NCBI RefSeq assembly: GCF_008642375.1
Contig: NZ_CP029194.1
Coordinates: forward strand, 744,001-808,000
Origin: Streptomyces venezuelae
GTDB lineage: Bacteria; Actinomycetota; Actinomycetes; Streptomycetales; Streptomycetaceae
Direction of reading: 5' to 3'
Length of the DNA stretch: 64,000 nt
Shown: positions 42,542 through 57,461 of the stretch, piece by piece
How the letters are laid out: every line of letters begins with the position of its first letter
How positions within the stretch are numbered: position 1 is the first letter of the stretch
Translations under genes and position numbers: made by a program
Notes under the pieces: generated by a model
What the model saw: only the letters and a program-made list of their open reading frames with translations
What the model was told of the DNA's origin: nothing
Database searches by the model: none

Positions 42542-42728
42542 GGCGACGAGGTACCACCAAGGACGCTCAGGGCCACGCCGAGGACCCGACATTCGCCCGG
42601 TCAGCAGGGGGCGGACCCGAGGGCGCCGGTGGCTCGTCACGGAGCTCGTCGGGTCCCGTGTTCGAGTGATCGTCCGCTGCTAGTGTCCGGTACGGGGCGG
42701 GTGTCCCGTGCCGGGTGAGGAGGAGTCC

Positions 42729-43463
42729 ATGAAGGCCGCGGACGACGGACGGCAGCAGCTGGACGCGGCGAGCGTCCTCAACGCGAAGAGGACGCTCCTC
42801 CAGCTCCTGGCCAGAGCCGGGGTCTGGTCCGGGGACGCCGAGGAACTGATCGGACTCGTGGAGGCCGGTGCCCTCGCCCTCGCCCACACCGAGATCGGCG
42901 AGAGCGCCCGGAGCGCGCCGGAGGGGAACGACGGTCGCTACGAGGCCGGCTGGCGCGACGGCACCCGTGCTGTCGCCGACGAGCTCGCGGACATCGCCGA
43001 ACGCACCCTGCGCCACGCCCTCGCCCCCGACCCGACGGTGTCCTCGCCGGACGACCGGTCTCCCGTCGGCCGGGCGGAGATGGAGCGGGCGAAGGTCGCG
43101 ATCACGCCGCTCTACCTCTCGTACACCGCCGTGTCCGAGCTGGACCCCGACGCTACCGAGCAGGTGCTCACCGCCGTCCTGGGCACGATGAGCCCCCGGC
43201 AGCGCGCCGGGTACGCGGGGCGGCTGACGGAGTTCGCCACGGCCCATCACGCGCGCCTGGAGCGGCTGTACGCGGAGTACGGTCCCGGCAGCGCCATCGC
43301 GATCCACGGCCGCTACTCCCTCGTCCACTCCCCCACCAGCGTCGCCGTGCTGGAACGTCTCGCCGCCGCGCCGGCGGCGCTCCACGAGGAGTGGGACGCC
43401 GCCGAGCTGCCGCCGGCGTGGCTGGACGGCCTGATCACCGCGTGGGGCCCGGCGGCGCACTGA
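42729..43463 (+). CDS. Hypothetical protein (244 aa)
   Basis: I do not recognise this family. It is a soluble, mostly helical 244-residue protein. Visible stretches are SVLNAKRTLLQLLARAGVWSGDAEELIGLVEAGALALAH, TRAVADELADIAERTLRHALA and TEQVLTAVLGTMSPRQRAGYAGRLTEFATAHHARLERLYAEYG, which look like a helix-rich bundle. There is no signal peptide, membrane segment or nucleotide-binding motif. The ATG at 42729 follows GTGAGGAGGAGTCC. Its 3' end overlaps the convergent phosphopantetheinyl transferase gene by 29 bp. It may be unrelated to the carrier-protein cluster. Confidence 0.65.
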   Translation: MKAADDGRQQLDAASVLNAKRTLLQLLARAGVWSGDAEELIGLVEAGALALAHTEIGESARSAPEGNDGRYEAGWRDGTRAVADELADIAERTLRHALAPDPTVSSPDDRSPVGRAEMERAKVAITPLYLSYTAVSELDPDATEQVLTAVLGTMSPRQRAGYAGRLTEFATAHHARLERLYAEYGPGSAIAIHGRYSLVHSPTSVAVLERLAAAPAALHEEWDAAELPPAWLDGLITAWGPAAH

Positions 43464-44094
43464 TCCGCGGGGAAGGCCCCGGTCCGAGGGTGAAGGCCGT
43501 GACGGGAGCGGCGGAGGCCACCGCCGCCACGGCCGACCTGTGCGGGTCCGTCCATGCGAGGACGCGGAGATCGCCGTCGCCGGCCTTCAGCCGCGCTTCC
43601 TCGCGGACCCACAGGCGGAGCAGGGCCGCGCCGGGGTCCGGGGCGCAGGCGGCCGCGCGGACGGCGGAGGCGGGCAGGACCCGGCCGAGTACCGACAGCG
43701 GGCCCGGCCTGCGGGTGGCGGGCTCCACGTCGACGCCCACGGCACCGGGGCCGACGGCCGCCGCGACGAGGCCGTCGGCGTGGCTCAGGCTGACGCCGAC
43801 GCCGGGGTGGTCGGGGAGGTAGGGGCGCCCGTGGCCGGGCCGGTCGCAGTCGGCGCAGTACTGGGCCGGGGCCGATTCCTCCGGTGGCCTTCCGGTGAAC
43901 CGGGCGGCGCAGAGCCGCAGCAGCAGCCGTGCGGCCAGGACGTCGTCCCGGCGGCTCGGCACCCGTGTCGCGGCGAGTCGTCGCAGCTCCCAGGGTTCGA
44001 GCAGTCCCTCGTGCAGCCGGGGATGGGCCAGGACCTCGCCGGTGGTCGCGACGGCCGCCAGCGCCGTACGGCCTTCGCCGGTCACGGGCGTCAT
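43435..44094 (-). CDS. 4'-phosphopantetheinyl transferase (cluster-encoded)
   Basis: A 219-residue Sfp-superfamily transferase. It has the GVSLSHADGLVAAAVGPGAVGVDVEP segment (motif GVDVEPA) and LRLWVREEARLKAGDGDL in place of the usual W-x-x-KEA-x-x-K. A CADCDRPGHGRPYLPDHPGV stretch precedes the fold, as in many Streptomyces PPTases. It should activate the carrier protein encoded 11 bp upstream in the same operon. The ATG at 44094 has a poor ribosome site, which fits coupled translation. The Lys of the second motif is replaced by Arg/Glu (VREEARLKA), so activity needs confirmation. Confidence 0.82.
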   Translation of the reverse strand: MTPVTGEGRTALAAVATTGEVLAHPRLHEGLLEPWELRRLAATRVPSRRDDVLAARLLLRLCAARFTGRPPEESAPAQYCADCDRPGHGRPYLPDHPGVGVSLSHADGLVAAAVGPGAVGVDVEPATRRPGPLSVLGRVLPASAVRAAACAPDPGAALLRLWVREEARLKAGDGDLRVLAWTDPHRSAVAAVASAAPVTAFTLGPGPSPRISAPPGPTR

Positions 44095-44105
44095 GGGTGA
44101 GGCGG

Positions 44106-44372
44106 TCAGCCGGTGGCTGCCGCGCCGCCCCGGGCTGCGGCCGTCCCGGAGCGGGTCAGGAAGCGGCGCTCCACGCGGCCGAGCGTGCGGAAGTCGTCGA
44201 TGGTGACTTCCTGGAGGTCGATGGAGTCGCCGGAGATCTCCTCCAGCAGGTCGATGAACTCCAGGAAGTCCATCGAGTCGATGAGTCGGGCCTCGATGAG
44301 GTCCTCGTCGACGTCGATCGGGCCGTCGAGGCCGGGGTTCTTCTCGTGGAGCCACGCGGCGATGCGTTCCAT
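44106..44372 (-). CDS. Stand-alone acyl/peptidyl carrier protein
   Basis: An 88-residue carrier protein. The phosphopantetheine site is S33 in LIDSMDFLEFIDLLEEISGD, and the helices around it follow the usual four-helix plan, with a long Ala/Gly tail. It lies 42 bp downstream of the tRNA-synthetase-like ligase and 11 bp upstream of a phosphopantetheinyl transferase on the same strand. In rhizobial systems such carrier proteins are the acceptors for amino acid:[carrier protein] ligases. The ATG at 44372 suits the AAGGAG site; a GTG at 44384 is the longer option. Confidence 0.9.
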   Translation of the reverse strand: MERIAAWLHEKNPGLDGPIDVDEDLIEARLIDSMDFLEFIDLLEEISGDSIDLQEVTIDDFRTLGRVERRFLTRSGTAAARGGAAATG

Positions 44373-44414
44373 GGTGCTGGTCACTCCTTGGTGCTGTGCG
44401 GGTTCGGTGACGTC

Positions 44415-45272
44415 TCAGGACCGGGCGGCCCGGAGCCGGGCGAGGGCCTGTTCGGGGGTGCCGTGGGCGAGGATCATCGCGTGCACCCAGCGTTCGACGC
44501 CGAAGGCGACGCAGGCGCTGTACGCGGACCCTTCGGCACCCGCCCGGATGTCCAGCCGCTCGCCGAAGAAGTTGCGGTGGCGGTTGACGGAGGCGATGGC
44601 CGTGCCGTCCGGGGCGCTGAACTCGTGCTTGACCGGGTCGAGCGCCATGAGGCGGGCCCGGGAACCGCCCCGGTCGTAGAAGGGGTCGTCGGCCGTGGCC
44701 CGGGTCAGGTCGAGGCCGAGACGTCCGGCCACTTCCTGGATGAACTCGGCTCCCCGTTCCAGGTGTTCGACCGCTCCTTGCTTGGTGCCGAGGTACAGGA
44801 CCTCGCGCATGTGGAAGCCCCAGAGGCGGCGCAGCCCGTCGTAGTGGGTCTCGTTGCGGAAGCAGCGGCCGGTGGCGGAGAGCCGTAGCCCGTCCTCGCC
44901 GACGTCCCTGCCCTCCAGGGAGAGCAGGAGTCCGTAGCAGGTGGCGGAGGGGAGCAGGTGGCCGGTGGGGCGCAGCGGGAGCTCCGCCGGGTCCTCGCCG
45001 GCCGCCAGGCCGTCGAGCGCCTCGGGGGTGAACCGCCCGGCGGAGACGCCGAGGTGGGGGAAGTTGCGGAAGTAGTCCAGCCGGGCCAGGCCCTCGACGG
45101 ACAGCAGGGGTGGTCCGACCACCTCGGGGGCGGAGAGGCGTGCCGCCAGTCCGGTCAGCAGGGCGTCGAGGCCGTGCAGCAGGGCGGTGTGGACCGGGTC
45201 GAGCGTGAGGAGGCCCGGGCCGGGGTTCTTGAGGCCGCCGTCCGGCAGGGCCGTACTGCTGGTTGTGCTCAT
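44415..45272 (-). CDS. Amino acid:[carrier protein] ligase, truncated class II (SerRS-like) synthetase
   Basis: A 285-residue class II aminoacyl-tRNA synthetase core without a tRNA-binding arm. Motif 2 is GRCFRNETHYDGLRRLWGFHMRE (Arg139, Glu141), and motif 3 is ACVAFGVERWVHAM. C112, E157 and C254 fall where the zinc ligands of archaeal SerRS and of the Bradyrhizobium enzyme lie (reported as C131, E176 and C279; the 45-residue gap is identical). Those enzymes adenylate a small amino acid and load it onto a carrier protein, not tRNA. The carrier protein is the next gene. The amino acid used here is not known. Confidence 0.88.
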   Translation of the reverse strand: MSTTSSTALPDGGLKNPGPGLLTLDPVHTALLHGLDALLTGLAARLSAPEVVGPPLLSVEGLARLDYFRNFPHLGVSAGRFTPEALDGLAAGEDPAELPLRPTGHLLPSATCYGLLLSLEGRDVGEDGLRLSATGRCFRNETHYDGLRRLWGFHMREVLYLGTKQGAVEHLERGAEFIQEVAGRLGLDLTRATADDPFYDRGGSRARLMALDPVKHEFSAPDGTAIASVNRHRNFFGERLDIRAGAEGSAYSACVAFGVERWVHAMILAHGTPEQALARLRAARS

Positions 45273-45515
45273 GGAAACCGCTCCCTCTCAGCGTGTGCGA
45301 ACAGTCGGGGGCGTCGGCGGGTGGGCAGGAGGACGATCCACGGCGTGGGTGTGGTGGTGGCGGCCGGATCGGTTCGGTCGGTTCGAACGTCCGGGAGTGT
45401 GGCTGCCGTCGGACCGCATGGCGTCGCCGCCGACCGGGCGCGGCGGTGCGTCCGGCCGGTGCCCCGCCGGGGCCACGGCCTGCGAGAAGCCCCTGGGATC
45501 GGAGCCGCGCCATGG

Positions 45516-45545
45516 ACCCTAGGCCAGCCCGTCCCGCCTTGTCTA
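45516..45545 (-). promoter_or_regulatory. Candidate promoter for the ligase/ACP/PPTase operon
   Basis: On the minus strand TAGACA (45540-45545, one mismatch to TTGACA) is followed after 18 bp by TAGGGT (45516-45521). The -35 box lies inside the operator-like site at 45537-45552. Confidence 0.45.
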
Positions 45546-45552
45546 GACCAAA
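45537..45552. promoter_or_regulatory. GntR/HutC (DasR-like) operator, left copy
   Basis: CCTTGTCTAGACCAAA matches 12 of 16 positions of the DasR-type consensus ACTGGTCTAGACCACT, including the central GTCTAGACCA. It overlaps the -35 box of the leftward promoter, where binding would repress. Related regulators with TGGTCTAGACCA sites are common in Streptomyces, so the protein need not be DasR. Confidence 0.5.
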
Positions 45553-45629
45553 GTCGGCGGGTCGGCGCAGGTCGCCGAGTGTTCGCTTCGATCTTCCGGA
45601 CACGTCAACTGTGCATATCCGGCCGACGC

Positions 45630-45659
45630 TTGACAGCGGCTATGGTCTAAACCAATGCT
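45630..45659 (+). promoter_or_regulatory. Candidate promoter for the dioxygenase operon
   Basis: TTGACA (45630-45635), 18 bp, then AATGCT (45654-45659). The -35 box is a perfect match; the -10 is weaker. The transcription start would fall near 45666, giving a leader of about 49 nt before the ATG at 45715 with its GGAGGG site. Confidence 0.5.
45641..45656. promoter_or_regulatory. GntR/HutC (DasR-like) operator, right copy
   Basis: TATGGTCTAAACCAAT matches 12 of 16 positions of the ACTGGTCTAGACCACT consensus and lies between the -35 and -10 of the rightward promoter. Together with the copy at 45537 it would let one regulator control both arms of the cluster. Confidence 0.5.
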
Positions 45660-45714
45660 GCTGCGTAACCGGCAGTGACCGTCCTCGGCCCTGACCCCGT
45701 CCTGGAGGGACCCC

Positions 45715-46836
45715 ATGACGACCCCCGCTCCCCACGGCCGCCCTCGCCACCCCCGTCTGCACAGAGCGGCGTCGGACCTTCCCTACTTCAGCGCGGACGG
45801 AGAGTCCTATCTCGCCCGGACCACCCTGCGGGAGCTGAAGAAGTCCCGCCCCCTGCGGGTGCTCTCCGAGGCGGACTTCGCCCATTGGCAGACGTACGGA
45901 TACGTCGTCGTCCGGGAGGCGATACCTGCGGAGGACGCCCGGCGGCTCCTCGACTTCGCCTGGGACTTCCAAGGGCTCGACCCGGACCGCCCGGAAAGCT
46001 GGTACGAGGACCGGCCGTTCCGCTCCGAGCTGGACCAACAGCTGCACGTGTACGGATTCGTCGAGGCGTACCACCACCAACTGCTGTGGAACAGCCGCCA
46101 GTCACAGCGCGTGTACGACGCCTTCGTCGACGTCTGGGACTGCGAGGAGCTGTGGGTCACGCTGGACCGGCTCAACCTCAATCCGCCCAACGTCAAGAAC
46201 CGCGACCGTGCGCTGATCGAGCCCACGGACCGGGGCTTCGACATCGAGCTGCACTGGGACATCGACACCACGCTCGGCGTCCCGCCCCAGCGGGTGCAGG
46301 GGATCATCGCGCTCAACGACACCCGGCCCGAGACCGGCGGCTTCCAGTGCGACCCCGAGCTGTTCCGGCGGTTCGAGGAGTGGAAGGTCGCCCAGCCGGC
46401 CGACCGGGACCCGCTGCGTCCCGCCGTGGACCGGACCGAGTTCCCCGTCGAACGGCCCGATCTCCACCCCGGCGACCTGCTCATCTGGAACGGCCTCCTC
46501 GCCCACGGCGTGGCGCGCAACGCCTCCGAGAACGGGGTGCGCGCGGTCCAGTACCTGTCGATGATGCCGGCGCTCGAGGAGCACGACAGGCTGCGCCGCT
46601 CCCGTGTCGAGTCCTGGCGGCACCTGCGCACCCCCCGCTGGAACCGCACGCTCGTCGGCGATCCGGTGCTGCACGAGTCCAAGCGCTACCCCACGGCCGA
46701 ACTGACCGGGCTCGGCAGCCGGCTCCTCGGGCTCACCTCGTGGCACGAGACGGCCGATGCCGGCGCATCCGCGGCCGCACATGCGGATGCCGGTCGGAGC
46801 GGGGACGGAGAACCTGCGTGCGCCGCGTCTGCCTGA
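45715..46836 (+). CDS. PhyH-type Fe(II)/2-oxoglutarate dioxygenase
   Basis: A 373-residue phytanoyl-CoA dioxygenase-family enzyme. The iron triad is H180-x-D182 (ELHWDID) and H264 (LLAHGVAR), with R276 (GVRAVQYLS) placed to bind 2-oxoglutarate. The fold starts with FAHWQTYGYVVVREAIPAEDARRLLDFAWDF. It would hydroxylate a substrate, plausibly the carrier-bound amino acid loaded by the divergent ligase, as PhyH-type enzymes do in several natural-product pathways. The ATG at 45715 follows CTGGAGGGACCCC. Its 3' end overlaps the next gene by 19 bp. Confidence 0.9.
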   Translation: MTTPAPHGRPRHPRLHRAASDLPYFSADGESYLARTTLRELKKSRPLRVLSEADFAHWQTYGYVVVREAIPAEDARRLLDFAWDFQGLDPDRPESWYEDRPFRSELDQQLHVYGFVEAYHHQLLWNSRQSQRVYDAFVDVWDCEELWVTLDRLNLNPPNVKNRDRALIEPTDRGFDIELHWDIDTTLGVPPQRVQGIIALNDTRPETGGFQCDPELFRRFEEWKVAQPADRDPLRPAVDRTEFPVERPDLHPGDLLIWNGLLAHGVARNASENGVRAVQYLSMMPALEEHDRLRRSRVESWRHLRTPRWNRTLVGDPVLHESKRYPTAELTGLGSRLLGLTSWHETADAGASAAAHADAGRSGDGEPACAASA

Positions 46837-48146
46837 CCCTCCCCACCGACCGGGCCTGCTCCGAGACCATCAGGGCGGTCGCCGAGGAGGCCGCCCACGG
46901 CGCCCGCCGGTTCGGCGTCGAGGTGCACCTCCTGGTCCTGGACTCCTCCGAGGCGCCGGTGCTCGCCGGGCACCGTACGACGGTCACCGGTCTGCCGCCG
47001 GTGCCGGGCGTGGTCGTCCACCACCTCGACGAGGCCCGGCAGCGGGCCTTCCTGCGGAAGGTGATCGCCGCGTCGGGCGTCGCGGCGCCCGAGCGGGTGC
47101 TCGACCTGCTGCTGCCGTCCCGCGTGTCCTACGGGGCCTGCACCGACCGCGCCTTCCTGATCGCGGAGGCCCTGGGCTGCGCGTCGGTGCACCGGCGGGA
47201 CTCCGACAGCCGCTACCAGCACCACTCCCCCTCCGGGAATCCGCACGAGGGCGGACCGGTCTTCCCCTTCCACCACGAGCTGACGTCGCTGGGGCGGCTG
47301 CCCGCCGACGTCGCCGGACTCGTGTCACGGAGCAGGCTCGACCCCGCGTGCGCGGACCGGCCGGTGGCCATGGTCGGCGGCTCCTTCGTCGGCGAGATGT
47401 CCGTGGACGTCGAGGAGATCCGCCGGCTCGACCCCGCCGTCTACGAGGACGTCATCGGCCTCTCGGTCCCCGACGGCTATCCGGAGATCTGGCGCAGGAA
47501 CCTCATCGCCGAGTCGTTCCGCGGCGCCGGGACCACCCCTTTCACCCGCGACCTCTCGACGCTCACCAGCGTCAGCCCCACGCGGGTGGACATGTGCAAC
47601 ATCGCCTTCACGAGCGAGGTCTACGGCCGGGTGCCGCTGCCGCCCGCCACCGACACCATCGGCAGCGACTACTTCCTGATCCATCTGGTCCACGACGCCC
47701 GGCTGCCGGGCGTTCTCCACAACCGCCATATCGTCAACTTCCATACACAAGAGCGTCGTTCCGACGCGGGCTTCCTCGCCTACCACCGGAGGCTCGCCAA
47801 GTTCTTCCTGTCCACGCCGTACTTCAACGCCGTGTACGAACGGATGGCCGCCGCCGGAGCGGAGTTGCTCGACGCCGACGGCCGTGTCCGCGCGGATGCC
47901 GTCGCCGGGTTCGTCAGGGACAGCACCCTTCTGGACCCCGTCGAGAACGCCGAGCGGCTCGACGTCGTGGACCGCTCGTACCGCAAGCTCGGCGGCCGCT
48001 ACGCCGGGGCCGCCGACGTCCTCGCCGCCGAGCGCGAACGACTCATCGACGCGGCCCGGGCCGACATGGAGGATTTCGCCCTCCTGATCGACGCCTGGGG
48101 ACCCCTGACCCGCTCCACGAAGTCCGTGAAAGGCATCACATGGTGA
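46818..48146 (+). CDS. DUF6271-like, glycosyltransferase-like protein
   Basis: A 442-residue protein that I believe belongs to DUF6271. Its N-terminus (VRRVCLTLPTDRACSETIRAVAEEA, then EVHLLVLDSSE) resembles the start of GT-A glycosyltransferases, and the middle contains TDTIGSDYFLIHLVHDARLPGVLHNRHIVNFHTQERR, a segment suited to a catalytic and metal-binding pocket. No membrane helix is visible. The GTG at 46818 lies 19 bp inside the dioxygenase gene and follows GGAGAACC, so translation is coupled. It may attach or transfer a sugar, or act on the carrier-bound intermediate; the reaction is not known. Confidence 0.72.
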   Translation: MRRVCLTLPTDRACSETIRAVAEEAAHGARRFGVEVHLLVLDSSEAPVLAGHRTTVTGLPPVPGVVVHHLDEARQRAFLRKVIAASGVAAPERVLDLLLPSRVSYGACTDRAFLIAEALGCASVHRRDSDSRYQHHSPSGNPHEGGPVFPFHHELTSLGRLPADVAGLVSRSRLDPACADRPVAMVGGSFVGEMSVDVEEIRRLDPAVYEDVIGLSVPDGYPEIWRRNLIAESFRGAGTTPFTRDLSTLTSVSPTRVDMCNIAFTSEVYGRVPLPPATDTIGSDYFLIHLVHDARLPGVLHNRHIVNFHTQERRSDAGFLAYHRRLAKFFLSTPYFNAVYERMAAAGAELLDADGRVRADAVAGFVRDSTLLDPVENAERLDVVDRSYRKLGGRYAGAADVLAAERERLIDAARADMEDFALLIDAWGPLTRSTKSVKGITW

Positions 48147-49957
48147 GTGAGCGAGACTCCTCGCGGCTCGATGACACCCCCGCACCGGCACGCGCGGTCA
48201 CCCTCACCGTCGCGTACGACGGCGGTGAGGAGCGCCGGGGCCCCGTCACGATGGGGCAGGCCAACATGATCCGCTGCGTCCTGCGGGACGAGCCCGGGCA
48301 CATCAACATCCACGACGTGTGGCCGGCGCCCGCAGGGACCGGGGCGGAAGGCGCCGTCGACGCCCTGCGTACCCTCGCGGTACGGCACGAGGCGCTGCGC
48401 ACCACCTTCCCGCACGCCCCGGGCTCCGTTCCTCGCGAGCAGGTCGTCGCCGCCGCCGGTACGTTCACGGTCACCGTCCTCGACCACGACGAGCTCCCCG
48501 GCGAACCCGCCGTCTACGCGGAGTCGCTGGCGCGCGAGGCCCGTGACGAACGCTTCCGTCTGGACCGGGACTTCCCCCTCCGGGTGACCCTGGTCGCCCT
48601 CGACGGCGCGGCGGTGTACGCCGCCGTGGCGGCCAGCCATGCCGTCACCGACATCAGCGCGCTCGCCGTCCTCAAGGAGGAATGGCTCACGCTGCTGTCC
48701 GGCGGGACGCTGCCTCCGCTGACGGCCCTCACGCCCCTGGGGCTCGCCGCGGAGGAGGCGGCCCCGGCCGGGCTCCGCAAGTCCGCCGCGTCGCTGGGGT
48801 ATTGGGAGCGGATCATCCGTACCGGACCGCAGGCCATGTTCGCGGAACCGGGTGCCGAGGGGACCGAGATCGCCGCGCCGCGGCTCACCCTGCGGTCGCG
48901 GCGGGGCGCCCGCGCCCTGGCTGCCGTGGCGGCGCGGACCGGCGGCCTCCCGGCGACGGTGCTGCTCACTGCCTGGTGCGCGCTCCTCGCGCACCGTACG
49001 GGCCAGCCCGCCTGTGTGACCGCCGTCCCGACCGCCAACCGGTTCGAGCCACGGCTGACCCGCTCGGTCAACACCCTCTCCCAGGACGCCCTGCTCTGCC
49101 TCGACGTCCGGGTCCCGTCCTTCGACGTGCTCCTCGGCAAGGCCTGGGGGGCGGCGCTCAACGCCTACCGGCACAGCCGGTTCGACGCGGTGAGCCTGTG
49201 GGAGATGATCGACCGGGCGACCTTCGAGCGCGGCAGCCGGTTCTCGCGCGATGTCGCCTTCAACGACGTGAGCACCCTGCCCACCGCGCTTCCTTCCACT
49301 CTTCCTTCCACTCTTCCTGCCGCCGATCCCTCCTCCCCCGGGGGCGAGACCGCCGTCGGCCCGGAGCTGGAGCTCAGTTGGGGCGAGGTGCAGGTGCTGC
49401 CGACGCGCGTCCTGACCTTCGTCCACGAGACGGACCCGCTGCTGCGCCTCGGCGTGTGGGCCGACCCCGCGCTGTTCACGCGGGAGCAGGCGGAGGGCCT
49501 CGTCGTCGGTCTGGTACGTCTCCTGGAGGCGGCCGCCGCCGGGGACGTGCCGCTGGACGCGCTCACCGAGGTGACGGGCGTCCGGACCGTCGAACGCGGC
49601 CCGGAATGGGAGCGGGTCGACGGCTCCTGGGTCTCGCCGCCCGCCGTGGCGGACGCCCTGAGCCGGGCCCTCGACGGCGTACCCGTACACGTCACGACGG
49701 ATCCCGCGCCGGGCCGCGGATCGCCGGAAGGGGAAGCCGAGGCCGGGCTCATGGCTTACATCGCCGCCGGGGGCCGCCCGCTCACTCCGGCGGGGGCACA
49801 CGCCGCGCTCATGGACGCCCTCCCCGGCCGCCCCGGACTCCTGGCTCCCCGGCGGTACGTGATCGTCCAGGACCCGCCGGAGGAGGCCGACCTGAGCGGC
49901 GCCTGGGTCCGGCAGCAGATTCTCTCGGAAGGGACCGGCCGGGACCGGCGGATGTGA
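48140..49957 (+). CDS. Stand-alone condensation-domain protein (degenerate motif)
   Basis: A 605-residue NRPS condensation-domain-like acyltransferase. Conserved elements are the N-terminal QANMIRCVLRDEP, RTLAVRHEALRTTF, and a C3 motif reduced to ASHAVTDIS, where the first His and the terminal Gly of HHxxxDG are missing but the second His and Asp remain. The latch and floor region includes NRFEPRLTRSVNTLSQDALL. It may form an amide or ester bond with the carrier-bound amino acid. A 12-bp repeat encodes LPSTLPSTLP. The gene overlaps DUF6271 by 7 bp and ends 1 bp before the MFS gene. Confidence 0.87.
   Translation: MVSERDSSRLDDTPAPARAVTLTVAYDGGEERRGPVTMGQANMIRCVLRDEPGHINIHDVWPAPAGTGAEGAVDALRTLAVRHEALRTTFPHAPGSVPREQVVAAAGTFTVTVLDHDELPGEPAVYAESLAREARDERFRLDRDFPLRVTLVALDGAAVYAAVAASHAVTDISALAVLKEEWLTLLSGGTLPPLTALTPLGLAAEEAAPAGLRKSAASLGYWERIIRTGPQAMFAEPGAEGTEIAAPRLTLRSRRGARALAAVAARTGGLPATVLLTAWCALLAHRTGQPACVTAVPTANRFEPRLTRSVNTLSQDALLCLDVRVPSFDVLLGKAWGAALNAYRHSRFDAVSLWEMIDRATFERGSRFSRDVAFNDVSTLPTALPSTLPSTLPAADPSSPGGETAVGPELELSWGEVQVLPTRVLTFVHETDPLLRLGVWADPALFTREQAEGLVVGLVRLLEAAAAGDVPLDALTEVTGVRTVERGPEWERVDGSWVSPPAVADALSRALDGVPVHVTTDPAPGRGSPEGEAEAGLMAYIAAGGRPLTPAGAHAALMDALPGRPGLLAPRRYVIVQDPPEEADLSGAWVRQQILSEGTGRDRRM
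49289..49312 (+). repeat. 12-bp tandem repeat inside the condensation gene
   Basis: Two perfect copies of CTTCCTTCCACT (49289-49300, 49301-49312), with a partial third, encode the linker LPSTLPSTLPA. The repeat lies in a loop region and is a likely slippage site. Confidence 0.85.
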
Positions 49958-49958
49958 C

Positions 49959-51269
49959 ATGACGATGGATACCGATGACGTGACCGTCCGGCGGAAGTCG
50001 GACGCGCTTCCCAGCCCGTGGCGGTCGAGCCGCTTCCGGCTGTTCTTCACCGCGCGCAGCGCGTCGCTGCTCGCCGACGGCATGCTGATGGTCTCGCTGA
50101 CGACCGCCGTCCTCGGCGCGGGCTACGGGGCCAGTGGCGTCGGATACGCGCTGGCCGCGTGGATGGCGCCGATCGTCCTGCTGGTCCTGGTCGGCGGAGT
50201 CCTCGCGGACCGGTTCACCCCGCAGGTGATGATGGTCGGCGCCGACGTGGTGCGCCTGGTGGCCATGCTCGCGCTCGCGGCGCTGCTGGCCGCGGGCGAC
50301 GTACGGCTCTGGCACATCATGGCGCTGCTCGCGGTCAGCGGCGCCGCGACGGCCATGTTCCAGCCGGGCCTGGCGAGCATGGTCCCCCAGGTCGCCGAGG
50401 ACATCCAGCGGGCCAACGCGCTCCTGCGGATATCCGAGGCGATCTGCACGCTGCTCGGCCCGGGCCTCGCGGGGCTCCTCGTCGCCTACTGGGACGTGGC
50501 GGGCTCCTTCCTGGTGATCGCGGCGGCGTACGCGCTCAGCGCGCTGGGCCTCGCGCCGCTGCGGAAGCTGAGCACCGCCAAGGACGACAGTGCCGACCCT
50601 CTGTGGCAGCGGCTGGCCACGGGGTGGCACGAGTTCCGGTCCCGGTCCTGGCTGTGGGGTGTCATCGCCGTCTGGGCGGTCTACGGTCTGTTCGTCTTCG
50701 GGCCGGCGCTGCCGCTGGGCGCGGCGCTGCTCACCGAGCAGCACGGGGCGAGCGGCTACGGCTGGATCGCCTCGGCCGACGGGGCCGGCACGATCGTGGG
50801 CGGGCTGCTCGGCATGCGCGTGAAGCCTCGCCGACCGCTCGTCGCGGGGGCCCTCGCCATGCTGTTCTTCTCGCTCAACCCCCTGGCCCCGGCCCTCGGC
50901 TGGTCGTTCACGCTCACGGCGGTCACCGGTGTCGTGGCCGGCTGCGGCTTCGCCTTCTGGGGGGTCATGTGGGCGACGAGCGTGCAGTCCCATATTCCCC
51001 TGGCCGTCCTCAGCCGTGTCTCGGCCTACGACATCGCCGGCTCCATCATGGTGATCCCGCTGGGGCGGGCACTGGCCGGTCCGGCGGCGGAGTCCTTCGG
51101 GGCCGATCGCGTGCTGCTCTTCTCCGCCGTGACGGGTGTCGCGCTCCTCGGGGTCATGCTCTGCGTCCCGGCCGTCCGCGCGCTCGGCCGGGCGCCGGCG
51201 GTCGACGGCGCCGAGGACGTGGACGGCCCGGACGGCACCGGGTCGGACGGCGGCGGCACAGGCCGCTGA
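49959..51269 (+). CDS. MFS exporter (enterobactin-exporter type)
   Basis: A 436-residue transporter with twelve predicted helices. The N-half has FFTARSASLLADGMLMVSLTTAVLGAG and VGGVLADRFTPQVMMVGADVVRL (motif A-like), and the C-half includes GWIASADGAGTIVGGLLGMRVKPRRPL. This is the MFS_3/EntS-like group, which exports siderophores and peptides. It starts 1 bp after the condensation stop, so it belongs to the dioxygenase operon and probably exports the pathway product or gives self-protection. The C-terminal tail is acidic and Gly-rich. Confidence 0.9.
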   Translation: MTMDTDDVTVRRKSDALPSPWRSSRFRLFFTARSASLLADGMLMVSLTTAVLGAGYGASGVGYALAAWMAPIVLLVLVGGVLADRFTPQVMMVGADVVRLVAMLALAALLAAGDVRLWHIMALLAVSGAATAMFQPGLASMVPQVAEDIQRANALLRISEAICTLLGPGLAGLLVAYWDVAGSFLVIAAAYALSALGLAPLRKLSTAKDDSADPLWQRLATGWHEFRSRSWLWGVIAVWAVYGLFVFGPALPLGAALLTEQHGASGYGWIASADGAGTIVGGLLGMRVKPRRPLVAGALAMLFFSLNPLAPALGWSFTLTAVTGVVAGCGFAFWGVMWATSVQSHIPLAVLSRVSAYDIAGSIMVIPLGRALAGPAAESFGADRVLLFSAVTGVALLGVMLCVPAVRALGRAPAVDGAEDVDGPDGTGSDGGGTGR

Positions 51270-51295
51270 CGCCCGTGGCGGGCTCGGCCGACCGC

Positions 51296-51994
51296 TCAGG
51301 CCTCGCCGGTCGGCGACGGCAGGGCGACCGGCCGGAGGACCATGAGCGAGTCCTCGAGGGTCGCCACCATGGCGAAGGGGAAGCGGTCGAGCTCCAGGCA
51401 GAGCGCGACGTCGTCAGGGTGTGTCCCTTCGCGTACGCCCTCCCTCAACTCGGCGGCGGCGCGTGACGCGTCGGCGCGGCGGAGGAACTCCGTCGCGCCG
51501 GTCTCCGTCCCGTCGTTGACCCTCCGGTCGATGTACTGCGCGCACGCCAGGTCTTCCTCGGCCCGCCCGTCCTCGCCGGTGACCACGAACGTGACACCGT
51601 CGCTCCCCCGGGCCCGCAGGACCGAGGCCGTCGCCTCCGCGACCACGAAACTGGCGCACAGCACCAGCGACGCGTCCTTGACCGCGAGCGCGCCGACCGT
51701 CCCCGCCGTGGTCTTCTGGACGACGGTCCGTCCACCGAGGTCGAGGGAGCGCAGCAGACCCGGCGAGTTGACGGCGTCGAACCCGGGCGCGGGCGGACCG
51801 TCCTTGAGCGCGACCCAGTCCGGGTGACGGGACTTGAGCGCGAGCGCTTCGTCCAGCGACCCGGCGAGAACGATCTTCTCCGCCCCTCGGGCGAAGGCCC
51901 AGGCAGCCACCGTGTAGGCGCGCATGACGTCGACGACGACGGCCACGGAGGGGACTTCGACCACTTCGGCGACGGAGAGGAAACGAGTGTCCAT
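51296..51994 (-). CDS. 2-phosphosulfolactate phosphatase family protein (ComB-like)
   Basis: A 232-residue ComB-family protein. It has [28 protein letters not shown], the [36 protein letters not shown] core and [19 protein letters not shown]. In methanogens ComB makes sulfolactate for coenzyme M; actinobacterial copies have no known role in that pathway, so it probably acts on another phosphorylated hydroxyacid. It stands alone, convergent with the MFS gene at a 26-bp distance. Confidence 0.82.
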
Positions 51995-52068: not shown

Positions 52069-54963
52069 TCATGCGCCCGCGAGGAGGGCTGCCACCGCGT
52101 GTGCCGTGTCGGGGTGGCGGTCCGTCAGGGACGGGTGGCGGGGCGCGGTGTCCGTCGGCGCCCATCCGTCCGCGCAGCCCAGCAGCTCCGCGAGCGCGTC
52201 GAAGGTCTCCGGGTGTGCCGGGAGCAGCGCAGCGCCCCGTGGGGCCGTGGAGTGCGGACGGGTACGGGCCGCCGCGAGCGCCACCGGCTGCTGCCGCCAG
52301 GGCGGGACCCAGGCGTCCAGGGCGGCGAGCCGGGCCGGGAAGATGCGTCCCGCCTCGCGGATGAGCAGCGGGGCCAGCTCCGCCGCGTTCGACCGGAGCG
52401 TGGTGATGAGGACCGGCAGCCACGGCAGCAGGACGGCGTCCGGCAGCCGCCCGAAGGCGTTCGAGACGGCCTCCACCACCACGTCGGCGAGTCCCGGCAC
52501 CGGTTCGAGCGCGTGGACGAAGCCGCTGAGGTAGCGCGGGTAGGAGGGCACCACCAGAGGATTGCCGAGGAGCTCGTCGCAGCGCGCCCGCAGCTCCGCC
52601 CGGGAGAGCGTGCCGAGCTGCACCTGCGCCGCCCACAGCAGCGCCGTCTTCGCCGGGTCCTGCGGGTGCGACTGCGCCACCGACAGTTCGAGCTGTGTCC
52701 GGTCGCAGCCCAGCGAGAGCGCCAGGCTCTCCATGCTGAACAGGAAGCCCAGCATGGCCGCCACCTGCCCGGCCGTCGCGTCCTCGTCCCGGAAGGCGGT
52801 CGGCAGCAGCGTGCAGTAGTGGGCGTATCCGGTCCTGACGAACGACTCGATCCACGGCGGCAGCACCGCTTCGCTCGTCCGGTAGTACGCGAGGAGGCCG
52901 CGGACCCGGCGCAGCACCTCCGGCGCCCCGTCCACCGTGCGCTCGGCGGCCAGGACTTCCAGGGCCCGTGTGCCCAGCTCCTCGGCGAGGCGCCGGCCGC
53001 CGAGGTACAGCGTCGCGTCCTCGACCGCCCCCAGGACCTGCGCGGTCGTCGCCTGCGGCCCGTACGCCGTGCGCCGCAGCCGCTGCTCAAGGACCTGTTC
53101 GAGGCTCACGCCCTCGTAGCCGAGCTCGATGAGCGCGCGCTGGTGGGTGCCGAGGGACAGGTCCCACGACTCCTGGATCGAGCGCTCGCCGAGCCGCCGC
53201 TCTCCCATGATGGGCCGCGCGGCGCCCGTCGGCATCAGCCGGCGCAGCATCCACAGGACGTCGGAGCAGGCCCTCAGGTCCGGCTCCGAGGCCATGTCGA
53301 GGAGGGCACGCCGCACGCCGCGCTGCTGGAGGTTGAGCGCCAGCGGTTCCAGCCGGTCGTACACGTCGCGCGCGAGGGGCGGCAGCGCGTCGTAGCCGAC
53401 CTGGCCGATCCGGTCGCCGCCCATCATGATCTCGACGAGGCGGCGCACGTCCCGGCGCCCGGGCACCGAGTCCTTCTCGATGCAGGTGACGGCCGCGTCC
53501 TGGAAGTCGTACGGCGTCGGCTTGGCCCGGTCCCGCATGCCGGCCAGCAGGATCGACGTCTCGAAGACGGCGATCGCGTCGGCGGTCGAGGCGAGGTAGC
53601 CGCTGCGGCGGGCCGCGCGGACGATGTCCACGGACCAGCCGAGCAGTTCGGCCTCGTCCAGGGTGTCGACGACCGGCGGCCGGCGCAGGAAGCCGGAGAG
53701 CCGGTCGTCCGCGCCCACGGGCACGACGGGGGTCTCGGCCTTCGCGGCCGTCTTCCGCGCGGCCGTCCTCGTCGGGGTCGGCTTCTTCGCGCCGGCCTGG
53801 CCTTCCAGGCGGTACGGCTTCACGCGGGTGCGCTTGAGGTTCTTCGCCCACTGCGTGGCGGCGATCGAAACCGATCCGGAGGCGAGGCCGAACTGCGCCT
53901 CGATCGCGGAGTGGCTCGACGGGATCAGCCCGTACTGCCAGGTGGTGGCGGTCCGCGGGGAGATCGTGAAGCCGGAGGTGCCGTCGGCGGCCGTGGCGCC
54001 GTCCACGCCGAACTCGTCGACCCGGCTCGCCGCGTGGAAGGCGCCGCACACATAGAGACAGTCCGCCGGGTCGGTGCCGGTGGCCGCCAGGTGCTCGCGC
54101 ATCCGGGTCCACATGTACCGCTCGCGGTCCTCGTCCACGCGGACCCGCTCGCCGTCGCCCGGGGCGAGCCGCCGGAAGAGGCTGCCGATGAGGAACATGA
54201 CCTGGCGGTAGGTGTCGTGGTCGCTGTCGCCGAGCGGTACCTCGACGTACTGGTGCCACCACTCCGACCAGTGGCGGACCTTGCCGTGCCGGAGCAGGTG
54301 CTCCTCCAGCTCGGCGAAGCGCGGTCGCAGGTCGCCGATCTCGACGCCGACGGCCTCGCCGTGGAGCGCCGCCTCGGCCTCGGTCCCGGCGGCCTTCGCC
54401 CCGGGAGCCGCCTTGCCCGTGGCGCCCGCCGGAGCCGACGCGTCCTCGTCCGCACCGTCCGGGGCCCCGGCCCGGTCGTGCCGGGTGTCCCACTGGAAGA
54501 CGTGGTCGGAGGAGCGGTCGACGAGGACGAGCTCCACGCCGGGGGTGTCGAGTGCGTACGCGATGGCCTGGTACTCGGCGGAGGCCTCGGTGATCGGGGC
54601 GACGACGGACAGCGGCGCCCAGTCGGCCGGGAAGCCGTCGATGTCGCCGGCGAACGCCTGCACGGCGACCGGAAGCCGGCAGTTGCGCAGCTCGGTCAGG
54701 AGCGGCGCCATGTCCTCGCACAGCTCCAGGTACACGACCTTCGGCTGCTTCTCGCGCAGTCGGCGGGCCATGGCGAGCGCCGACGCGGGCGAGTGGTGAC
54801 AGACGGGGAAGATCTCCAGGGGCTCGCCGGCCGCCCGGTCGACGTCGTCGACCATGCCGAGGAGGATGCCTTCCAGCGCATCCCCTCCGCCTGCGAACTC
54901 AGCTGCGGCGTCGTGGAGTTGTCCCCGCAGCGCGGCGAACGGGGTCTCGGGGGCCGCGCTCAT
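52069..54963 (-). CDS. DUF5682 family protein
   Basis: A 964-residue protein that I assign to DUF5682 from its start (LEIFPVCHHSPASALAMARRLREKQPKVVYLELCEDMAPLL) and its place in a MoxR-VWA operon. The N-terminal half (to about residue 330) has a TIKI/ChaN-like pattern; a Lys/Ala-rich linker follows, and the C-terminal half is helical. No established activity is known to me. The ATG at 54963 overlaps the AAA gene stop (ATGA), so translation is coupled. It is the last of five genes on this strand. Confidence 0.8.
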   Translation of the reverse strand: MSAAPETPFAALRGQLHDAAAEFAGGGDALEGILLGMVDDVDRAAGEPLEIFPVCHHSPASALAMARRLREKQPKVVYLELCEDMAPLLTELRNCRLPVAVQAFAGDIDGFPADWAPLSVVAPITEASAEYQAIAYALDTPGVELVLVDRSSDHVFQWDTRHDRAGAPDGADEDASAPAGATGKAAPGAKAAGTEAEAALHGEAVGVEIGDLRPRFAELEEHLLRHGKVRHWSEWWHQYVEVPLGDSDHDTYRQVMFLIGSLFRRLAPGDGERVRVDEDRERYMWTRMREHLAATGTDPADCLYVCGAFHAASRVDEFGVDGATAADGTSGFTISPRTATTWQYGLIPSSHSAIEAQFGLASGSVSIAATQWAKNLKRTRVKPYRLEGQAGAKKPTPTRTAARKTAAKAETPVVPVGADDRLSGFLRRPPVVDTLDEAELLGWSVDIVRAARRSGYLASTADAIAVFETSILLAGMRDRAKPTPYDFQDAAVTCIEKDSVPGRRDVRRLVEIMMGGDRIGQVGYDALPPLARDVYDRLEPLALNLQQRGVRRALLDMASEPDLRACSDVLWMLRRLMPTGAARPIMGERRLGERSIQESWDLSLGTHQRALIELGYEGVSLEQVLEQRLRRTAYGPQATTAQVLGAVEDATLYLGGRRLAEELGTRALEVLAAERTVDGAPEVLRRVRGLLAYYRTSEAVLPPWIESFVRTGYAHYCTLLPTAFRDEDATAGQVAAMLGFLFSMESLALSLGCDRTQLELSVAQSHPQDPAKTALLWAAQVQLGTLSRAELRARCDELLGNPLVVPSYPRYLSGFVHALEPVPGLADVVVEAVSNAFGRLPDAVLLPWLPVLITTLRSNAAELAPLLIREAGRIFPARLAALDAWVPPWRQQPVALAAARTRPHSTAPRGAALLPAHPETFDALAELLGCADGWAPTDTAPRHPSLTDRHPDTAHAVAALLAGA

Positions 54964-56084
54964 GCCAGCTTGGCGATCGCTTCGCGGCCGCCCTCCAGGA
55001 ACTCGGGCCAGGAGCCGCCCTCCTCCTTGCCGCGCGGCTCGACGACACCGTGCAGGTACTTGTTGAGGATGGCCAGGTCCTCGGGCTCGCGGCGGGCGAG
55101 GGAGCCGACGAGCGAGGCGGCTAGGGTACGGGCGGTCAGGGCGCGCTCGCCGAAGAAGTTGCTGTGGAGGACGGCGTCCTCCAGTACGCCGATCTGTTCG
55201 GCGGTGGACAGCGCGGACTCCAGCTTCTCGTCGTCGCTGCCGGCCGCCGCGGCGGAGGCGCGGAGGTCGGCGAAGCTCTGGAGGAGGACGTCGAGGAGGG
55301 TGGGCGGCACGTCCAGGTCGATCTGGTGGCGGCGGAGCAGTTCCTCGGTGCGGAAGCGGACGATCTCGGCCTCGCTCTTCTTGTTCGTCACGACCGGGAT
55401 GCGGACGAAGTTGAAGCGGCGCTTGAGGGCCGACGACAGGTCGTTGACCCCTCGGTCGCGGCTGTTGGCCGTGGCGATGATCGAGAAGCCGGGCTTGGCG
55501 AAGACGATGTTGTCGCCGCCGCCGTCGCTCTCCAGCTCGGGGACGGAGACGTACTTCTCGGAGAGGATCGAGATGAGCGCGTCCTGGACGTCGCTGGTGG
55601 AGCGGGTCAGCTCCTCGAAGCGGCCGATGGTGCCCGTCTCCATCGCGGTCATGATCGGCGAGGGGATCATCGACTCCCGCGACTGGCCCTTGGCGATGAC
55701 CATGGACACGTTCCAGGAGTACTTGATGTGGTCCTCGGTGGTGCCCGCGGTGCCCTGCACGACGAGGGTGGAGTTGCGGCTGATGGCGGCCGCGAGGAGC
55801 TCGGCCAGCCAGCTCTTCCCGGTGCCGGGGTCCCCGATGAGGAGCAGGCCGCGGTCGGAGGCGAGGGTGACGATGGAGCGCTCGACGATGGAGCGGTCGC
55901 CGAACCACTTCTGGGCCACCTCCCGGTCGAGGCCGTCGGCGCGCTCGGAGCCGAGGACGAAGAGGCGCACCATCTTCGGGGACAGCCGCCAGGAGAACGG
56001 CTTGGGGTTGTCGTCGATCGATTCCAGCCAGTCGAGTTCCTCGGCGTACTTGATCTCGGCGGGGGCACGGAGCAGGTCGGACAT
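54960..56084 (-). CDS. MoxR-type AAA+ ATPase
   Basis: A 374-residue AAA+ protein of MoxR type. Walker A is LLLIGDPGTGKSWLAELLAAAI (Lys about residue 90), the Walker B region is FEELTRSTSDVQDALISILSEKYVSVPE, and sensor 1 is FSIIATANSRDRGVNDL. MoxR proteins act as chaperones that insert metal or remodel VWA-domain partners, and a VWA gene lies 12 bp upstream. The C-terminus is helical. The stop overlaps the DUF5682 start. Confidence 0.92.
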   Translation of the reverse strand: MSDLLRAPAEIKYAEELDWLESIDDNPKPFSWRLSPKMVRLFVLGSERADGLDREVAQKWFGDRSIVERSIVTLASDRGLLLIGDPGTGKSWLAELLAAAISRNSTLVVQGTAGTTEDHIKYSWNVSMVIAKGQSRESMIPSPIMTAMETGTIGRFEELTRSTSDVQDALISILSEKYVSVPELESDGGGDNIVFAKPGFSIIATANSRDRGVNDLSSALKRRFNFVRIPVVTNKKSEAEIVRFRTEELLRRHQIDLDVPPTLLDVLLQSFADLRASAAAAGSDDEKLESALSTAEQIGVLEDAVLHSNFFGERALTARTLAASLVGSLARREPEDLAILNKYLHGVVEPRGKEEGGSWPEFLEGGREAIAKLA

Positions 56085-56096
56085 GCGAAGGGCCTC

Positions 56097-57461
56097 TCAG
56101 GTGAGGAAGGTCTTGAGTTCGTGGACGAGCTTGTCGATGTGGCCGGAGACGACCGGGGTGCCGAGCGCCTTGAACCGCTCGCGGAACCAGGGGTTGACCT
56201 CCTGGCGTCCGGAGCTGGTCACCGAGCCGACGGGGATGAACCGCACGCCGGACCGGTGGACCGCCTCGATGCCCTCGAAGAGCGGCTGGGAGCGGTCGAA
56301 CTCGTAGAAGTCGGAGATCCACACCATGACGGTGTTCTTGGGCTCGGCGATCTTCGGCCGGGCCATGGCCATGGCGACCGGTCCGTCGTTGCCGCCGCCG
56401 AGGTTGGTACGGAGCAGCACGTCGAACGGGTCGTGCACCCAGGGGGTGAGGTCGATCGCGCGGGTGTCGTACGCGATGAGGTGGACGTCCACCTTCGGCA
56501 GACCGGCGAAGATCGAGGCCAGGATGGTGCAGTTCACCATCGAGTCGACCATGGAGCCGGACTGGTCCACGACGACGACGAGCCGCTGGGGCGTGGTCCT
56601 GCGGACGGTGTGCCGGTAGTAGAGGCGGTCGACGTAGAGCCGCTCCTCCTCCGGGCTCCAGTTGGTGAGGTTCTTCCAGATGGTGCGGTCGATGTCGAGG
56701 TTGCGGAAGACCCGCTTGGGCGGGACCGAGCGGTCCAGCTCGCCGACGGTCGCCTTCTCCACCTGGGTGCGCAGCACCTCGGCGACCTCGTCGACGTAAC
56801 GCCGGATGAGGGACTTGGCGTTGGCCAGGGCGATGCCGGAGAGATTGCCCTTGTCGCGCAGGAGCTGCTCGATGAGGGACATGCTCGGGGTGAGCTTGGC
56901 GGCGAGCGCGGGGTCGGCGAGCACCTCGCGCAGGTGCATGCGCTGGACCAGGTCCGCCTCGAGGGAGCCGAGTTCGGCGCCGAGGCCGCCACCGGTGAGG
57001 CCGGCTCCGGCCGCCCGTCCGCCGCGCAGGCCGCCGGGCGGGCAGCCGAGCGCGCGCTCCAGCCAGCCGGCGTCCGACTGCCAGCGCGCGAGCTGGCCGG
57101 CGGAGACCGTGCCGGAGCCGGTGGAGAAGACATTGAGCAGGACCTTCGAGGCGAGTGCGGCACGCCGCACCTCGGCGGCCCGGTCGCGGGCGTCGTCCGG
57201 CTCGGGCTCCGGGGTCATCAGGCCGTCGAACTCCTCGGCCAGTTCCGGGTGGCGCTGGACGACGGAGTCGACGGACGCGCCCGGGTCGAGCAGCGCCGAC
57301 GGGAGGCCGATGTCCTCGACGACGGCGAGGCTCGCGGACTCCAGGGCGGCCTGCTCCTCGTGGTCGAAGAGCCGGGCGAGGAGACGCCAGTAGAGGACCT
57401 GACGGCGGTTGTCGTCGGAGTCGGCGGGAGCGGTGGGCTCGGGGGCAGTGCGGTCGGTCAT
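56097..57461 (-). CDS. VWA-domain protein of the MoxR system
   Basis: A 454-residue protein. The C-terminal von Willebrand A domain (about residues 290-450) has a MIDAS motif in VVVVDQSGSMVDS and the distal Thr/Asp in LRTNLGGGNDGP. The N-terminal half is helical (VLYWRLLARLFDHEEQAALESASLAVVEDI), with a Gly/Ala-rich linker near residues 155-180. It should be the substrate or adaptor of the MoxR ATPase. The ATG at 57461 overlaps the stop of the preceding gene (ATGA). Confidence 0.9.
   Translation of the reverse strand: MTDRTAPEPTAPADSDDNRRQVLYWRLLARLFDHEEQAALESASLAVVEDIGLPSALLDPGASVDSVVQRHPELAEEFDGLMTPEPEPDDARDRAAEVRRAALASKVLLNVFSTGSGTVSAGQLARWQSDAGWLERALGCPPGGLRGGRAAGAGLTGGGLGAELGSLEADLVQRMHLREVLADPALAAKLTPSMSLIEQLLRDKGNLSGIALANAKSLIRRYVDEVAEVLRTQVEKATVGELDRSVPPKRVFRNLDIDRTIWKNLTNWSPEEERLYVDRLYYRHTVRRTTPQRLVVVVDQSGSMVDSMVNCTILASIFAGLPKVDVHLIAYDTRAIDLTPWVHDPFDVLLRTNLGGGNDGPVAMAMARPKIAEPKNTVMVWISDFYEFDRSQPLFEGIEAVHRSGVRFIPVGSVTSSGRQEVNPWFRERFKALGTPVVSGHIDKLVHELKTFLT

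Follow-up and report, generated by a model that had tools for sequence, protein, structure and literature searches.

A conserved Streptomyces gene cluster predicted to make a small amide with a seryl-tRNA synthetase-like ligase and no adenylation domain

A stretch of 64,000 nucleotides from Streptomyces venezuelae (NZ_CP029194.1, positions 744001-808000 of an 8.56 Mb single-contig genome; hereafter the window) carries, at its positions 43435-51269, seven intact open genes in two divergent arms that form one conserved, co-inherited unit. One arm encodes a homologue of amino acid:carrier-protein ligases with a seryl-tRNA synthetase (SerRS)-like core, a stand-alone carrier protein (CP) and a 4'-phosphopantetheinyl transferase (PPTase). 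The other encodes a PhyH-family oxygenase, a member of the Pfam family DUF6271, a stand-alone condensation-domain protein (C protein) and an MFS exporter; no regulator gene is among the seven. We predict that the cluster is a variant of nonribosomal amide synthesis without an adenylation domain. Ligase, CP and PPTase would likely replace the adenylation module of a nonribosomal peptide synthetase (NRPS), and the C protein would aminoacylate a building block that is made separately. This is the reading we favour, with a confidence that stays somewhat short of even.

The conservation of the unit was followed in two samples. In the first, loci fetched by ligase or DUF6271 were searched by tblastn with the window proteins and read with a home-made gene caller, from which the gene starts in Table 1 were also taken. 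Ligase and PhyH occur together in 78 such loci outside the window, 64 of which are distinct by PhyH sequence, and 59 of the 64 have the full seven-gene set with no change of order or orientation. Because the loci had been fetched by one or other of these genes, a sample of 293 genomes of the order gives a fairer test of co-occurrence. Here DUF6271 is found in 89 genomes and a close ligase (at least 81% identity, the next relatives dropping to 56% and lower) in 28. All 28 also have DUF6271, which in 27 lies on the same contig within 5.5 kb of the ligase, the remaining genome (G090) having the two genes on different contigs (hypergeometric probability 1e-16, ignoring relatedness). Protein distances correlate at 0.60-0.92 over all 21 pairs of the seven genes, a range to which shared species history contributes. 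A first-pass annotation of this DNA, made from the letters and their open reading frames, had raised the question whether homologues of the seven genes lie together in related genomes, and both samples show that they do.

Judged by the ligase, the nearest named relatives of the genome are Streptomyces (S. narbonensis, 98%; S. gardneri, 97%). The cluster is carried by the named cultivable species S. griseus, S. lavendulae, S. anulatus and S. clavuligerus, in the last of these on megaplasmids (16 records at 80-90% identity; one annotated stretch), and one complete copy stands in a record named Microtetraspora glauca (L147). The flanking families vary between groups of loci, the commonest lying near 19 of the 64, so that the unit ends at PPTase and MFS. 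Within the plus-strand arm PhyH and DUF6271 overlap by 19 bases, DUF6271 and C by 7, and C and MFS are separated by 1 base, spacings that would be expected within a single operon.

The ligase matches Pfam tRNA-synt_2b (1.1e-7) and the NCBIfam model PRK07080, amino acid--[acyl-carrier-protein] ligase (1.1e-32; 113 bits, below the model cut-off of 357). Its closest solved structures are those of the Bradyrhizobium amino acid--[acyl-carrier-protein] ligase 1, Bll0957 (4h2w, 1.1e-20; 3mey, 1.3e-20), over residues 26-276. The next structural relative is type-2 SerRS, to which it aligns only in the catalytic residues 210-496 of 527. Ahead of this alignment, which starts at position 210 of SerRS, the 285-aa ligase has 16 residues, and a tRNA-binding domain is absent. 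The first-pass description of a truncated class II synthetase without a tRNA-binding arm is thereby borne out, and the short form is normal for the amino acid:CP ligase family. In the alignment with 4h2w, C112, E141 and C254 face Cys, Glu and Cys, positions which we take to be the zinc ligands of the family, as in Bll0957. In a set of 85 sequences all three are conserved above the cut-off. The same holds for R139 and R261, in which we see the motif 2 and motif 3 arginines.

Members of the ligase family load Gly or Ala onto a CP from the same operon (PMC5370406). A link of such ligases to nonribosomal synthesis was proposed in 2010 (PMC4849084), and a 2022 review, in the part available, calls their biological role unknown (PMC9437257). 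PMC12930378 and PMC11253843, considered as sources of such a role, concern DltA-type or ordinary adenylation-domain enzymes in the parts available.

The CP gene lies directly downstream of the ligase, and the order ligase, CP, PPTase recurs in 59 of the 64 loci. No Pfam or NCBIfam model matches the CP, whose Asp-Ser attachment motif is conserved, D32 and S33 passing the cut-off in a set of 92 and in a set of 64 sequences. The PPTase scores just under the Pfam cut-offs (ACPS 3.3e-5, 24.3 bits against 25; 4PPT_N 21.2 against 27). Its GxDxE and WxxxEAxxK motifs are kept in at least 95% of 55 sequences, and an S. clavuligerus relative bears the annotation PPTase. Pfam and NCBIfam gave no AMP-binding match in the nine proteins at 42708-51994, to which the scan was limited. 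The first-pass view that a synthetase-like ligase stands in place of an NRPS adenylation domain is supported by this comparative evidence.

In the second arm, PhyH matches its Pfam family at 2.2e-8. H180, D182, H264 and R276 are invariant in 36 sequences from window-type clusters and from the sister clusters described below; they supply the HxD...H triad and the 2-oxoglutarate-binding Arg, the role of each residue being the one we assume from the family. PhyH-family halogenases lack the Asp of this triad. A structure model of PhyH reached a pLDDT of 59.5 and was left out of the fold search.

DUF6271, matched by its Pfam model at 1.9e-215, had been left open by the first-pass annotation; here it is modelled with high confidence as a GT-A sugar-nucleotide enzyme. 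Nearest in fold are the GT75 NDP-pyranose mutases (MtdL, plant RGP/UAM); the likeness of the predicted fold covers 312 residues, and DxD and HxR are present. At the sequence level there is no such match, as Pfam RGP finds none of 48 DUF6271 members at E up to 10. With agreement in fold and not in sequence, we rejected membership of GT75 and describe DUF6271 as working like a sugar-nucleotide enzyme, not as a GT75 mutase. The fold would also suit an MtdL-like NDP-pyranose/furanose mutase that feeds another glycosyltransferase and leads to a furanosylated product. We consider this improbable in view of the missing RGP matches and of a by-eye motif comparison, in which the two GT75 catalytic arginines (Arg159 and Arg257 of MtdL) do not appear to stand at matching DUF6271 motifs. 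The genes of neither cluster type include a separate glycosyltransferase, an absence tempered by a flanking family (f13) near 19 of the 64 type 1 (window-type) loci that looks glycosyltransferase-like by eye. In the literature searched we found no paper on DUF6271.

The substrate of the PhyH-DUF6271 pair is best approached through a second, sister cluster in which the pair recurs. The surroundings of DUF6271 were read in 60 of its 89 genomes, giving 39 sister loci (among L034-L084), 19 window-type loci, one locus that stops at the contig end (L070) and one that is divergent (L091). Sister loci share with the window a homologous PhyH-DUF6271 pair in the same order and, likely, a small exported product; they differ in having a pyridoxal phosphate (PLP)-dependent decarboxylase, a GNAT protein and a different MFS protein, families identified by Pfam on one example of each. 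The GNAT gene was not called apart in two of the 39, and in L072 a longer decarboxylase frame extends into a GNAT-like tail. By tblastn the 39 loci, which span about 20 kb apiece except where they are shorter or reach the end of a contig, contain no ligase, CP, PPTase or C protein, and the window's MFS gave one weak match; absence of the ligase partly defines the sister class, absence of CP, PPTase and C does not. The sister PhyH is 69-76% identical to that of the window (18 sister rows aligned) and keeps all metal-site residues. Type 1 and sister sequences form clean sister clades in the trees of PhyH (62 versus 39, support 0.997) and DUF6271 (52 versus 39, support 0.967). Among the 61 DUF6271 genomes without a close ligase, 51 have no ligase relative and 10 have some relative elsewhere, as counted in a first look that scored at most eight candidates per genome.

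These observations bear on the order of events. In the route that goes back to the first-pass annotation, an amino acid loaded by the ligase is hydroxylated by PhyH while on the carrier; DUF6271 would decorate it and the C protein would release or couple it. PhyH enzymes that act on carrier-bound amino acids exist (SyrB2/SyrP type), and in each of the 59 complete loci PhyH lies next to ligase and CP in divergent orientation. However, the pair stands in 39 sister loci with no ligase, CP or C gene nearby, most DUF6271 genomes without a close ligase have no ligase relative at all, and the sister PhyH is similar and intact. This argues against on-carrier hydroxylation, which we now hold to be quite unlikely, and favours a free building block. 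The sister PLP enzyme is nearest to lysine/ornithine decarboxylase (2plj, 2.3e-37), with the C-D of GPTCD kept in at least 97% of 40 sequences, which makes a basic amino acid the probable substrate. We infer that PhyH and DUF6271 add a hydroxyl and a sugar to a free, probably basic amino acid. In 28 of the 39 loci a GH3 gene is present no more than four genes away from the sister cluster, and the example tested is nearest to beta-N-acetylglucosaminidase (6k5j, 2.7e-76).

The sister cluster sits in several different gene backgrounds. At positions 9361-10662 of L091 (genome G227), a divergent DUF6271 gene (46-47% identical) stands without PhyH and precedes a GNAT-like gene; this may be a third arrangement of DUF6271.

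The C protein matches Pfam Condensation (3.5e-13) over residues 73-309, numbered on the translation from 48143. Its site reads S166-H167-A-V-T-D171-I; H167 and D171 of xHxxxD are conserved over 69 sequences, and the first His and the Gly of the HHxxxDG consensus are not kept. DUF6271 and C share a single open reading frame in 10 of the 64 loci and are fused into one protein in 13 of the 120 homologues listed, which suggests that C receives the product of DUF6271. By Pfam and NCBIfam the seven genes include no second CP, so the acceptor of C is probably soluble, as for VibH and glidonin C13. VibH acylates free norspermidine using a CP-bound acyl group (PMC5577590), and glidonin C13 couples free putrescine to T-domain-bound Ala (PMC10587159). 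The fusions, together with the predicted sugar-nucleotide fold, would also fit a DUF6271 that acts on an amino-sugar nucleotide or glycoside, with C aminoacylating that sugar. The ligase neighbourhood with Agrobacterium Atu2574 offers a parallel, an amide link of an amino acid to a cell-surface amino sugar being predicted there (PMC2922099). We judge this route unlikely: the sister decarboxylase points to an amino acid block, and Pfam and NCBIfam identify no polysaccharide genes among the seven. The exporter matches Pfam MFS_1 (1.2e-21) and TIGR00900 (1.4e-43, under that model's cut-off).

By eye, the C-terminal tail of the C protein resembles a relic of a lost adenylation C-terminal domain. 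We rejected this idea: the PDB profile search returned no adenylating enzyme and three chance-level matches, and AMP-binding_C is not among the four Pfam families matched by 34 members. Comparison by hhalign with five 'ANL' tails gave results no better than controls (nine families, of which eight yielded a result), a weak test in that at least one of the tails is carrier-type.

The route we favour, in which the amino acid is loaded on the carrier and the second partner is made off it, would run as follows. The PPTase would arm the CP, onto which the ligase would load a small amino acid after adenylating it; precedent in the family points to Gly or Ala. PhyH would hydroxylate a free amino acid off the carrier, probably a basic amino acid (lysine or ornithine, for instance), and DUF6271 would glycosylate it, probably at the new hydroxyl. 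The C protein, acting like VibH on a soluble amine, would couple this block with the aminoacyl group carried by the CP, giving a small amide or dipeptide for the MFS protein to export. The sister cluster would instead decarboxylate and acetylate the same block. The wider picture is that of a minimal nonribosomal amide system with a recycled tRNA synthetase core, in which two Streptomyces branches share a glycosylated hydroxy-diamino acid made by PhyH and DUF6271 and either cap it with Gly/Ala or decarboxylate and acetylate it. We offer this picture with more reserve, as a possibility on the doubtful side.

Several points weigh against this route. An adenylation domain from another part of the genome could serve the cluster in trans, and no preference of the ligase for Gly, Ala or another amino acid is discernible from its sequence. 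With SHAVTDI in place of HHxxxDG, one His and the Asp are kept and the rest is not, and activity of the condensation domain is no more than likely. The tail of the same protein has no relative identified by PDB profile search, Pfam or hhalign. The family that the DUF6271 model most resembles in fold consists of mutases, not transferases, and the DUF6271 profile gave no sequence-level match to 33 GT75 proteins by hhalign (E 0.27). The basic amino acid and the hint of N-acetylglucosamine both stem from sister loci and may not apply to the window type; PhyH and DUF6271 of type 1 form separate clades, so their substrate could have changed. Finally, the seven-gene pattern does not hold in five of the 64 loci. 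The contig of L146 is 3.6 kb long, the PPTase found no match in L144 (a Kitasatospora) or L089, and the hybrids L113 and L116 carry different exporters or enzymes in place of some of the genes.

Neither a description of this cluster nor biochemical work on it was found among the papers listed in the literature searches, which left subscription journals largely outside, and the first-pass remark that the combination could not be matched to a known product holds to that extent. A paper on manikomycin (PMC13372681), tried as a match, concerns in the part available an ordinary, unrelated NRPS. Parts of the system do have known counterparts. Ligases of the Bll0957 type share the SerRS-like core without a tRNA-binding domain, the small CP from the operon and the Cys/Glu/Cys positions; the similarity is distant over about 250 aligned residues, and the window neighbourhood differs in having C, PhyH, DUF6271 and an exporter. 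The C domains of VibH (vibriobactin) and glidonin C13 join a carrier-bound group to a soluble amine, as predicted here. Their group is put on the carrier by a conventional adenylating enzyme or domain, whereas here a synthetase-like ligase would do so and the site is xHxxxD. The valanimycin VlmL/VlmA and related tRNA-dependent routes likewise feed an activated amino acid from a synthetase relative to secondary metabolism, but they charge tRNA and use GNAT-fold transferases instead of a CP and a condensation domain (PMC2922099).

Ligase loci of other types look different. An AurF-like diiron oxygenase gene, which the window cluster lacks, is present in 15 of the 20 fetched named ligase loci that are not window-type (L148, L152, L153, L158, L159, L161-L165, L167-L171; such genes also occur in L116 and L176-L179), and 11 have a nitronate-monooxygenase (NMO)-like gene as well. 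These families were assigned by clustering, with Pfam run on L116 only, and two of the 20 loci gave no gene calls. The AurF-ligase loci look as if they N-oxygenate an amino acid on its carrier, and methyl-aci-nitro compounds, enteromycin for example, may be their products. The hybrid L116 contains the decarboxylase known from the sister cluster, type 1 PhyH and DUF6271, two ABC transporters, AurF, ligase, NMO, a methyltransferase, a CP and an isochorismatase-like protein. The genome of the window itself has two more ligases, 44% and 43% identical, at about 3.90 Mb (L032/L176) and 4.76 Mb (L033/L177). Both adjoin AurF-like genes. In addition, L177 encodes a condensation-like protein and what looks by eye like a second small carrier protein.

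The coordinates of the cluster are given in Table 1. On its left a plus-strand gene (42708-43463) encodes a 251-aa protein without Pfam or NCBIfam match, whose end overlaps the opposite-strand PPTase gene and whose family has six members in the gene-called set. On its right a 2-phosphosulfolactate-phosphatase-like gene (51296-51994, minus strand; Pfam 2.9e-31) adjoins the exporter; it is matched in just two fetched loci (L094, L095) and therefore lies outside the seven-gene unit. Four large genes follow in succession on the minus strand (52069-58861). An Rfam scan of the window gave no match at gathering thresholds.

Table 1 Features of the seven-gene cluster, in positions of the window.
Feature	Position	Strand	Basis or prediction
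Sfp-type 4'-phosphopantetheinyl transferase (PPTase), 219 aa	43435-44094	-	predicted to arm CP
Stand-alone carrier protein (CP), 88 aa (or 92 aa from 44384)	44106-44372	-	DSMDF motif, Ser33 predicted phosphopantetheine site
Amino acid:carrier-protein ligase, SerRS-like class II core, 285 aa	44415-45272	-	PDB homology
Divergent intergenic region, 442 bases, between two predicted operons	45273-45714		gene coordinates
PhyH-family Fe(II)/2-oxoglutarate oxygenase, 373 aa	45715-46836	+	Pfam PhyH, predicted hydroxylase
DUF6271 (PF19787), 442 aa	46818-48146	+	predicted GT-A fold sugar-nucleotide enzyme, probable glycosyltransferase
Stand-alone condensation-domain protein (C), 605 aa	48140-49957	+	Pfam Condensation; C-terminal tail ~150 aa
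MFS exporter, 436 aa	49959-51269	+	Pfam MFS_1

If the proposed route is true, the cluster would give amino acid:carrier-protein ligases their first metabolic role and DUF6271 its first function. DUF6271 gains a predicted fold and a predicted chemistry, and two sister pathways likely share one building block. As the cluster is compact and found in cultivable species, the role of the ligase is open to gene deletion and metabolite comparison.

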